Assembly (NCBI RefSeq): GCF_000732725.1
Contig: NZ_JPNB01000002.1
Span: 744,001 to 808,000, forward strand
DNA: 64,000 nt
Direction of reading: 5' to 3'
From: Kineothrix alysoides
GTDB taxonomy: Bacteria; Bacillota; Clostridia; Lachnospirales; Lachnospiraceae
In this document: positions 5,853-44,845 of the stretch, one piece after another
How the letters are laid out: every line of letters starts with the position of its first letter
Position numbering within the stretch: the first letter of the stretch is position 1
Position numbers and translations under genes: made by a program
Notes under the pieces: generated by a model
The model's input: only the letters and a program-made list of their open reading frames with translations
Databases searched by the model: none
What the model was told of the DNA's origin: nothing

Positions 5853-6013
5853 CGGTCTTCCTCCATTAAAAATGTCTTGATTTTTCCGGGCCATTAAACA
5901 GTTCCGTATATTACGCATTTTATAGTAAACTTTCTATTTTGTCAAAAAATTTACTAAGCATCTTGCTAAAATAGAAAATATAATATAGAATAAAATCTGT
6001 TGAATTACAAACT

Positions 6014-6101
6014 GGAGATGTACCCAAGTGGCTGAAGGGTCCGGATTCGAAATCCGGTAGGTCGGTTCGCCGGCGCAAGGGTTCAAATCCCTTCATCTCC
6101 G
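6014..6101 (+). tRNA. tRNA-Ser (anticodon CGA)
   Basis: An 88-base class II tRNA. The acceptor arms GGAGATG and CATCTCC pair perfectly over seven bases with discriminator G at 6101. The anticodon stem CCGGA/TCCGG closes a seven-base loop with CGA in the middle, which reads UCG serine codons. A long variable arm (TAGGTCGGTTCGCCGGC) and a TTCAAATC T-loop are present. CCA is not encoded. A TATAAT element lies about 30 bases upstream. Accessory genes begin right after this tRNA, but I found no repeated 3' end later in the window that would mark an attachment site. Confidence 0.95.
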
Positions 6102-6115
6102 TCATAATTTTAGTC

Positions 6116-30197: not shown

Positions 30198-30235
30198 AAA
30201 TGCTTGCCATAAGTAACGGCAAGCATTTATTTGTT
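30198..30235 (+). terminator. Terminator of the DUF1538/PII operon
   Basis: AAATGCTTGCC and its exact complement with a nine-base loop, followed by a T-rich tail (ATTTGTTCTTT). Confidence 0.85.
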
Positions 30236-30263
30236 CTTTAAAAGGAAAGTGATCCTTTTAAAG
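30236..30263. repeat. Second hairpin between convergent genes
   Basis: CTTTAAAAGGA and its exact complement flank six bases. It directly follows the terminator and precedes the 79-bp repeat at the end of the flavodoxin gene, and may terminate the minus-strand transcript. Confidence 0.6.
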
Positions 30264-30271
30264 AAAAGTGT

Positions 30272-30350
30272 ATGCGCAGCTACGCGCGCGGAACAAATGC
30301 TGTGCTGTCGGTGTTTTTAGCTGCGAAGGTGGGCGACGCACACATTTGTT
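30272..30350 (+). repeat. 79-bp dispersed structured repeat, copy 1
   Basis: Matches the complement of 43902-43980 at 64 of 79 positions with no gaps. It contains an imperfect long hairpin: AACAAATGCTGTGCT near the middle pairs with GCACACATTTGTT at the right end. The A-to-T change in one arm relative to the other copy is matched by a T-to-A change in the other arm, so pairing is kept. It overlaps the last 24 codons of the flavodoxin gene. Confidence 0.75.
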
Positions 30351-30807
30351 CTACGAACTCGCTGACTTTCTCCTGTGTAAGTTCTTCATTCTTCTTTGCA
30401 TTGATTAAGCTCAAGGTTCCGTCCATACGCCCTAACTTCTCGTTCAGCTTAACGATACATTTCTCTGCGTCACCGCCCGCACTGCAGATAAAAGCAGCCG
30501 TCACTTTGTTTCTCATATCATTATTTTCCAGAAAGGTATTGATGGGCGATGCCGGTCTGCTGTTCCAGATAGGCATTCCAATAACAACCCTGTCATAATC
30601 TGCCGGATTATATAGGTATGGTTTTAGCCTGGGCCTTTCTCCAAAAGTGGCCGCTTTACCGCAAAAGATGTACTTGCCTATGGTACTGCGGGGATATTCT
30701 TTTATTGGTTCAAGAGCCATAATATCAGCATCCATCTTCCTGGCAATCAGTTCGGCAGCAAATTTTGCATTCCCGCTCATCGAATAATATACCACTAATG
30801 TCTTCAT
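30280..30807 (-). CDS. Flavodoxin-family protein
   Basis: A 175-residue FMN-binding protein. The phosphate-binding loop is YYSMSGNAKFAAELIA at residues 7-22, with VVIGMPIWNSRPASPINTFL near 78 and AAFICSAGGDAEKC near 108 as in the short flavodoxins/NADPH-quinone reductase-like group. It acts as an electron carrier in the cytoplasm. It begins four bases after the PadR regulator, so the two form an operon. The last 24 residues (from about MCASPTF on) are encoded by a dispersed repeat, so the natural C terminus may have been replaced. Confidence 0.87.
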   Translation of the reverse strand: MKTLVVYYSMSGNAKFAAELIARKMDADIMALEPIKEYPRSTIGKYIFCGKAATFGERPRLKPYLYNPADYDRVVIGMPIWNSRPASPINTFLENNDMRNKVTAAFICSAGGDAEKCIVKLNEKLGRMDGTLSLINAKKNEELTQEKVSEFVEQMCASPTFAAKNTDSTAFVPRA

Positions 30808-33734: not shown

Positions 33735-33783
33735 AAAGTGTGCTTTGTAAACTCTCGCGACCAGATGTTCTGGCAGCACAGCT
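33735..33783 (-). repeat. Dispersed structured repeat, short relative
   Basis: The 49 bases match the core of the 43902-43980 copy in the same orientation at 37 of 49 positions, without gaps. AAAGTGTGCT, ACTCTCGCG and GCAGCACAGCT are unchanged. An inner hairpin CCAGA-TCTGG replaces a weaker one of the longer copy, again keeping pairing. It lies in the 191-base gap between the TetR and DUF1697 genes. Confidence 0.65.
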
Positions 33784-43901: not shown

Positions 43902-43980
43902 AACAAAAGTGTGCTTCACGCACTCTCGCGGCCAATTACTTCGGCAGCACAGCTTTTGTTCCGCGTGCGTAGCTGCGCAT
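43902..43980 (-). repeat. 79-bp dispersed structured repeat, copy 2
   Basis: Its complement matches 30272-30350 at 64 of 79 positions without gaps. The arms AACAAAAG-C-TGTGCT and AGCACA-CTTTTGTT pair with one bulged base. The copy lies just after the SulP stop codon. The inner part CGCGAGAGT is shared with the short copy at 33735. Confidence 0.78.
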
Positions 43981-43983
43981 CCA

Positions 43984-44049
43984 TTTTTTCTTGTAATAGG
44001 AGCACTTTCCTATTACAAGAAAAAAGCTCCGTTTGCACGGAGCTTTTTT
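43984..44049. terminator. Stacked hairpins ending the SulP transcript
   Basis: A 17-bp stem (TTTTTTCTTGTAATAGG and complement, 43984-44000 and 44009-44025) runs into a second stem (AAGCTCCG and complement, ending in TTTTTT at 44049). The A-run is shared, so the two structures compete. The second is a regular Rho-independent terminator. Confidence 0.85.
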
Positions 44050-44215: not shown

Positions 44216-44845
44216 TCAATATGATCCATATACCTCAAATTCCGCCACTTGCGCTCCTGCTCCCCCTGTATTAGAGGTAAATTCCAGTTCTATATATTTG
44301 GCATCCGTCTCTTCAAAGTTCAGTATTGCTTCATTTCCCCTGTCAGGATCGAAGTCATATGCCTGAAGCGGAATCAGCTCTTCGTAGTTTATTCCATCTT
44401 CACTTATTCTCACCGCGAATTCCTGTGTGCGCTTTCCCCATATCTTCTGCGGGCACAAACTTACCCTTACCGCATGGATACCCGCCGTCTGAGCCAGCTC
44501 CAAGGTGAGGATATCCGGGTAGCTGTTTCCGTCTCCCTCCCAATAGGAGGGGCCGGCAGTCTTGCCGTCAATGGCCTTCTTCGGTACGTAAACGTCCGCA
44601 AATCCGCTTGCTTCGATTTTTCCCTCCAGTGCAAGGTTATCTCCCTCCGGCACCTGTGAAATATATTCTTCTTTCAGAAAGGCTTCATGCTCCATAGGCG
44701 CCGATTGCTCCGGAGCCTCCACTATTGTCACGTTCGTTTCAGGCATCTTCACCGCTTCTTTTTCACCTATACGCATATCGTAAATGAAGAGAACAGCCCA
44801 TGATACCAGCATAAGGGTGAGTGCTATTATTCCTCCTTTTTTCAT
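44216..44845 (-). CDS. Secreted or anchored discoidin (F5/8 type C) domain protein
   Basis: A 209-residue protein with one N-terminal transmembrane segment (GIIALTLMLVSWAVLFIYDM), a linker of about 55 residues, and an F5/8 type C carbohydrate-binding domain from residue 68 (NLALEGKIEASGFADVYVP, AIDGKTAGPSYWEGDG, EFAVRISEDGINYEEL, AKYIELEFTSNTGGAGAQVAEFEVY, given in parts). It probably binds glycan at the cell surface. It is four bases behind the beta-helix glycosidase, which also has an N-terminal anchor, so the two may act together. Confidence 0.87.
   Translation of the reverse strand: MKKGGIIALTLMLVSWAVLFIYDMRIGEKEAVKMPETNVTIVEAPEQSAPMEHEAFLKEEYISQVPEGDNLALEGKIEASGFADVYVPKKAIDGKTAGPSYWEGDGNSYPDILTLELAQTAGIHAVRVSLCPQKIWGKRTQEFAVRISEDGINYEELIPLQAYDFDPDRGNEAILNFEETDAKYIELEFTSNTGGAGAQVAEFEVYGSY

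Follow-up and report, generated by a model that had tools for sequence, protein, structure and literature searches.

Several families of small, gene-less repeats are known from bacterial genomes. REP, BIME and REPIN sequences, which are found with TnpA_REP (RAYT), are short dispersed intergenic palindromes that often stand in tandem, are non-autonomous and are thought to act as single-stranded DNA hairpins. The BOX elements of pneumococcus are modular dispersed hairpin repeats, and group IIC introns insert directly behind intrinsic terminators. IS200/IS605 elements such as IS608 and ISDra2, and small elements derived from such insertion sequences, carry hairpins near their ends, and according to one account they use a guide 5' of the hairpin and insert into the lagging-strand template (PMC6006769). 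The definition of REP and REPIN sequences given in another source is a hairpin of 20-50 nt that is preceded on its 5' side by a conserved tetranucleotide of the GTAG type (PMC8266576).

A 64,000 nt stretch of the Kineothrix alysoides genome (the window; the genome, G000, is 4.68 Mb in 3 contigs) contains a repeat that resembles each of these systems in part. Like REP sequences, it is a dispersed, often tandem, intergenic palindrome, but it is longer and composite, stands behind terminators, has Lachnospiraceae-type hosts and was found without an adjacent Y1 gene; GTAG is absent from the hairpin foot in the family consensus, and a reverse-strand GTAG in the loop of an internal hairpin (P2) varies among copies. 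Its end structure agrees in part with that of the IS200/IS605 group, with hairpins near the ends and, at the right end, sequence 5' of the foot that matches the terminal bases; it also shares with this group the terminator T-tract as a site common to local IS200-type copies and, by indirect evidence, an orientation that fits the lagging-strand template. However, none of the IS200-type elements examined has ends like those of the repeat, some copies lie between direct repeats and there is no internal transposase gene. Its position behind terminators (60 of 105 copies against 23 of 420 control positions) recalls group IIC introns, yet the element is only about 115 nt long, has no Rfam intron domain, and no intact reverse transcriptase was found in its own genome. 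From BOX, as described, it differs in module structure and host. Two further candidates were rejected, a classical MITE of the DDE type, as judged by the ends, since the left ..TAATAGGA and the right ..GCACACTTTTGTTC are not mutual inverted repeats, and an integron attC site, as judged by the corresponding pair, which is GGAAC/GTTCY in the element. The attC R-box pair is RYYYAAC / GTTRRRY and comes with an integron integrase. No description of this family was recognised in a literature search. By anatomy and target it is a variation on the REP/MITE kind that is terminator-targeting and patchy, with a putative enzyme acting in trans.

The first-pass annotation had reported a 79-bp dispersed repeat in the window, and this observation is confirmed, with two corrections. 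The copies at 30272-30350 (+) and 43902-43980 (-) are identical at 64 of 79 positions without gaps, and the 49-bp relative at 33735-33783 (-) is an internal fragment of the family that covers model positions 27-75 (24 bits with the family profile). The arms AACAAA[A/T]G / C[T/A]TTTGTT are paired in both full copies, and the inner stem of the short copy does change in pairs (CCAGA/TCTGG versus CCAAA/TTTGG). The balanced A/T and T/A change in the arms is also real but rare, being present in 1 of 85 aligned copies. The repeat itself was correctly recognised, but its true unit is longer than 79 bp and includes a further hairpin, here called H1. The location at gene ends holds broadly; more exactly, copies lie directly 3' of a terminator-like hairpin and T-tract, as in the 60 of 105 scored copies above. 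The features of the window, compared where possible with the sister species G009, are as follows.

30199..30227, + strand: hairpin of the terminator that precedes the first copy, AATGCTTGCC..GGCAAGCATT; a similar hairpin stands at the unoccupied orthologous site of G009
30229..30237, + strand: left flank ATTTGTTCT, the terminator T-tract on the target side; it recurs at 30344-30352, and the empty site of G009 has ATTTGATCT
30234..30265, + strand: H1 of the first copy, TTCTTTAAAAGGA / TCCTTTTAAAGAA, whose stem covaries across the family
30272..30350, + strand: first 79-bp core, with P2 (GCGC..GCGC), the long-arm stem P3 (AACAAATG..CATTTGTT) and inner hairpins
33735..33783, - strand: internal core fragment (model positions 27-75), ends missing
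43902..43980, - strand: second full 79-bp core
43984..44025, - strand: H1 that belongs to the second copy, reading TTTTTTCTTGTAATAGGA / TCCTATTACAAGAAAAAA on the + strand
44025..44044, - strand: hairpin of the terminator behind the minus-strand frame 44216-44845; in the orientation of the 43902 copy it lies directly 5' of that copy; the orthologous terminator in G009 bears a different subfamily member

A frame on the minus strand at 30280-30807, flavodoxin-like by eye, terminates within the 30272 copy; its residues after ..EFVEQ are element-derived, and the insertion-free orthologue in G009 ends ..EFVDQINACLK.

In aligned copies the full unit is about 115 bp, with H1 preceding the 79-bp core, and units in head-to-tail arrays are spaced 110-117 bp apart. 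H1 (..TAATAGGA-loop-TCCTATTA..) abuts the target T-tract; it is followed by a linker that at times holds a mini-hairpin (e.g. GCCCTTCGGGC), and the linker by the core. The core comprises ATGCGC-AGCTAC-GCGC (the GC hairpin P2), the stem AACAAAAG-C-TGTGC / GCACA-CTTTTGTT and the inner hairpins. At the right end, AACAAAAG, located 5' of the hairpin foot, pairs with the terminal CTTTTGTT; the left end is also a hairpin (H1), but there it is the stem itself, and no separate guide, that pairs with the flank. Of 20 extra right-end regions fetched, 7 carry derivatives with internal deletions but with both ends intact, one of them joining H1 through ATGCGC to AGCACACTTTTGTTC, so that the ends act as those of one unit. 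Copies truncated at the 5' end (L161, L162, L168) and at the 3' end also occur. Among the available loci, in which left and right halves were sought up to 3 kb apart, there was no protein-coding or autonomous version. An internal terminator/antiterminator switch (GTGTGC-GAA-GCACAC plus TTTTGTT versus AACAAAAG..) was considered and dropped, as pairs 61-69, 62-68 and 63-67 are non-Watson-Crick in many copies.

Further copies are present in the genome, in numbers far above chance. The 30272 copy gave 51 blastn matches in its own genome, and the 43902 copy 28 when fewer candidates were scored. In the same genome a pattern of the element's final 15 bases identifies 87 right ends at up to one mismatch, against 0 for a reversed-pattern control, and the exact left-arm 20-mer occurs 44 times. 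Outside K. alysoides the distribution is patchy. Among 250 genomes that represent the genera of the family by one genome each, all with a completeness of 90% or more, 7 contain the 20-mer, own genome counted. In a set of 41 genomes, own included, 7 matched; the places listed number 28 in G012 and 22 in G009. A scan of species genomes gave at least 97 stretches with a match; among the 80 stretches listed, the record titles name Roseburia, Schaedlerella, Murimonas, Eubacterium, Lachnospiraceae bacterium and a few general names. Dispersed copies are up to 98.7% identical in G012 and 96.2% in G000. The 30272 copy had no match in phage and plasmid records, and a 20-mer had none in viral contigs.

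A hairpin followed by at least four T residues abuts the start of H1 in the 60 of 105 scored copies, compared with 6, 7, 5 and 5 of 105 at four shifted control positions (23 of 420 together). The scored copies are those outside tandems for which the beginning of H1 could be recognised, with repeated flanks removed; the other 45 have no terminator by the scoring rule. A cruder test gave 69 of 165 against 12 of 165, and the nearest upstream gene is co-oriented with the element in 124 of 150 copies, 22 tandem-internal copies being set aside in both counts. Some copies lie just upstream of an apparent ribosome-binding site and ATG. For the complete relatives G009 and G012 the origin was taken to be at dnaA and the terminus to lie opposite it; on this basis 41 of 48 element loci are in leading orientation, rising to 38 of 41 once a tenth of the genome on each side of the terminus is excluded. 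In the fetched loci, 101 of 129 open frames with 150 codons or more are leading, and the leading share expected if the element followed only its upstream gene is 69% (P 0.0002). Elements with the same orientation as the upstream gene are leading in 30 of 31 cases, and those opposite to it still in 8 of 10. The neighbouring gene is therefore no better a guide to orientation than replication is, a pattern that would follow if the top strand were used in single-stranded form on the lagging-strand template.

Comparison with the sister species shows both empty and occupied sites. The 30272 site is unoccupied in G009, where a similar terminator is followed by ATTTGATCTAC; in K. alysoides ATTTGTTCT flanks the element on both sides. 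The sites of C1:1011378 and of the three-unit array C1:1030582 are empty in G009, that of C3:256335 is empty in both G009 and G012, and that of the 3'-truncated copy C1:36828 is empty in G009, its counterpart in G012 perhaps holding an H1 remnant. One G009 copy is likewise missing from G000. Among 17 own-genome sites for which a sister-species counterpart could be aligned, 4 are empty in G009, 6 are occupied-like and 7 ambiguous. Empty orthologous sites show that copies have inserted, and the clean ones represent insertion since the species split, or precise loss. The six occupied-like counterparts (C1:209255, 1134335, 2075771; C2:203197, 1304761; C3:222063) hold an H1-like hairpin, a derivative or a related module; the orthologue of C2:1304761 (L132, in the G009:4382628 region) is a lone H1-like hairpin without the 79-bp core. 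Some orthologous sites are filled in both species by different subfamilies or derivatives, namely 43902 versus G009:267987 and the sites of C2:1247391, C1:2075771 and C2:349740. The flanks that border C2:1247391 are alike at all but a few positions, yet the H1 arms differ at three pairs, with every change matched on the other arm. TTTGTTC-like direct repeats flank several copies; the right repeat hardly varies across the family and could be part of the element itself. The element offers natural sequence variation at both ends together with empty sites in sister species.

Paired changes of this kind had been taken in the first-pass annotation as a sign of selection for structure. The fold is indeed conserved with pair-preserving change, but most of that change lies in H1, outside the 79-bp core. 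RNAalifold, run on the alignment of 85 copies, predicted five pairs, all of them outside H1 and P3, a result to which the many gaps in the H1 columns probably contributed, and covariation was then counted on a structure that we had named ourselves. On that structure the test divides: cells changed on both sides number 94, compared with 47.2 in shuffled alignments (none of 500 reaching 94) and 17-31 with slid partners, but the pairs that show such change number 9 against a shuffled mean of 8.3, a value reached by 207 of 500 shuffles. Cells were paired in 89.1% of cases, versus 39.6-52.1% with slid partners. The long arms are nearly invariant, with 3 of 15 pairs changed on both sides and 32-69 as the sole strongly covarying pair (TA 139, CG 33). 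H1 stem positions use all four Watson-Crick pairs, one of them with TA 23, GC 22, AT 17 and CG 12 of 83.

RNA would tolerate a G-T mismatch but not an A-C one, so that selection on the copies as RNA would favour the former. In 190 H1s there are 43 G-T and 37 A-C mismatches, in agreement with 74 and 64 at offsets 1-9 of 169 H1s, a set from which only the mismatch balance was used as its shuffle z-scores are inflated by an anchor picked for best pairing. The long arms of 190 cores have 46 and 38. RNA selection on the copies is therefore not evident in H1 and the long arms, and the near-equality argues for DNA hairpins or neutral decay. In the inner hairpin (six pairs, 64 own-genome copies) G-T exceeds A-C by 75 to 40, and by 70 to 11 in the outer four pairs, which would fit RNA; across all 190 copies the counts are 176 and 128, and the lean comes from few shared variants. 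The window scanned with Rfam at gathering threshold gave no match to the repeat, its sole match being a tRNA-Ser (CGA) at 6013-6103, and when two copies were scanned at low threshold, all matches scored far under their cut-offs (RAGATH-36, 12.5 bits versus 70). Given these scans and the RNAalifold result, a reading as an RNA gene was dropped. The earlier wording, structure in DNA or RNA, was a fair hedge, with the evidence now leaning to DNA and a mobile element and not to a host-serving RNA. The paired change may stem from selection that acts, mainly on DNA but possibly also on RNA, on hairpins of those copies that serve as mobile sources, with decay afterwards, and would then reflect no benefit to the host at individual sites. 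Dispersed repeats can evidently covary without being functional RNAs.

Taken together, the repeats probably form a family of about 115-bp non-autonomous, REP/MITE-like mobile DNA elements that are moved as single-stranded DNA by a Y1-type or similar enzyme in trans, a reading that we hold with modest confidence. The copies have inserted, form head-to-tail tandems, keep their ends in derivatives and, in a majority of scored cases, sit directly behind terminators, and in two complete relatives they lie in leading orientation. While single-stranded on the lagging-strand template the element would fold up, and cutting and joining might be carried out by an IS200/IS605-type Y1 transposase, or a similar single-strand nuclease, supplied in trans. 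The hairpin of the element with its TTTTGTTC end could then serve as a new target, giving rise to tandems. Y1 transposition is not known to make a target duplication, and the TTTGTTC-like direct repeats would fit it poorly unless the right one belongs to the element; the 5'-truncated copies are as reverse transcription would give, against a Y1 enzyme, though 3'-truncated ones occur too. As for candidate enzymes, a Y1 transposase is matched at two places in K. alysoides, at one of them free of internal stop codons, and the ends of that intact element are unlike the repeat, as are both left and right ends of the multi-copy Y1 elements of G009 and G012 (5 of 14 Y1 matches were unreadable). No Y1 gene flanked by the repeat was detected in the fetched loci with the repeat profile (best E 0.12, L283), and the 25 most recurrent clusters of flanking ORFs include no transposase; no cognate enzyme was identified among these Y1 and flanking-ORF candidates. 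Nine repeat-bearing relatives have a Y1 match in 4 cases and a reverse transcriptase match in 7, so that neither enzyme is proven. What moves gene-less hairpin repeats outside the REP/RAYT world becomes a testable question with this element, and the family offers a clear case of small non-autonomous DNA with transcription terminators as its landing pads.

A guide-directed, gene-less form of homing, in which the internal AACAAAAG and the H1 foot pair with the T-tract behind a terminator hairpin, is unlikely as an account of the family. Any hairpin followed by TTTTGTTC, the element's own end included, would then be a landing site, read from single-stranded DNA or RNA by an enzyme borrowed from the host or an insertion sequence. 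The window copy has the guide AACAAATG beside ATTTGTTC, and the unoccupied orthologue has ATTTGATC, so its A/T change could be a guide-target match and not a compensatory mutation. This reading of the change comes from one site, and two copies with the usual guide also stand at ATTTGTTC flanks, for which reason we do not make it a main claim. Also unlikely is a bacterial counterpart of SINEs, a short structured RNA inserted behind terminators by the reverse transcriptase of a class C-like group II intron acting in trans. Group II introns can follow terminators and show replication-strand bias, and both the terminator targeting and the leading-strand orientation would also be expected of group IIC-like introns. 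The match of AACAAAAG to the target T-tract is what an exon-binding site would show, and the reverse transcriptases in 7 of 9 relatives point the same way, but the K. alysoides genome itself has a below-cut-off RVT_1 match of 54 positions alone, a fragment, and group II matches are absent from the window at Rfam gathering scores and from two copies at low threshold. Similarly, the existence of 5'-truncated copies has to be set against 3'-truncated copies and internal deletions with both ends kept, which are also common, and the G-T lean of the inner hairpin against H1 and the long arms, where no G-U preference is clear.

That the repeat serves the host, either as a structured RNA or as an element at 3' ends that supports terminators, stabilises transcripts or acts as an attenuator, and is selected site by site with its spread secondary, is very unlikely. 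Co-orientation with the upstream gene (124/150) at transcript ends would suit such a role, but orientation tracks replication even where that gene is opposite (8/10). The conserved fold, and the copies just upstream of an apparent ribosome-binding site and ATG, would suit it too, but sister-species sites are empty or bear different subfamilies, mismatches have built up near-symmetrically in H1 and P3, and the distribution is patchy, the exact 20-mer being found in 7/250 family genomes. An equally poor prospect, in our estimate, is that the family has no current mobility, old copies being homogenised by recombination and palindrome-templated mutation producing paired changes without selection. 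Template switching would be expected to leave Watson-Crick changes and symmetric mismatches such as those of H1, and orthologous sites filled in both species by different subfamilies are in line with this reading. Such immobility is difficult to reconcile with the clean empty sites, which represent insertion since the species split or precise loss, or with dispersed copies that are up to 98.7% identical in G012 and 96.2% in G000, and the terminator targeting and strand bias require an insertion mechanism.

Other sequences share these sites. IS200-type elements were seen directly behind terminator-like hairpins at L176, L275, L276, L279, L280, L282, L283 and L284; of 14 Y1 matches in G000, G009 and G012, 9 had a readable left end, and 8 of these follow a hairpin and T-tract (by eye and hairpin finder, without a control set), the exception being L285. 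It is possible that the IS200-type elements of the genus have a general preference for terminator sites. Modules that open with the same ATAGGA-type sequence behind terminators (TATCATAGGAAAGACCTTGTTA.. and ..GACACCCTAATC..TAATAGGA) occur at L126, L152 and L074 and are perhaps related to H1. A different dispersed palindrome, GTTACTGTTCACTCCGTTC..GTGAACAGTAAC-like, is present in intergenic sites at L056 (C1 near 200600), L146 and L150.
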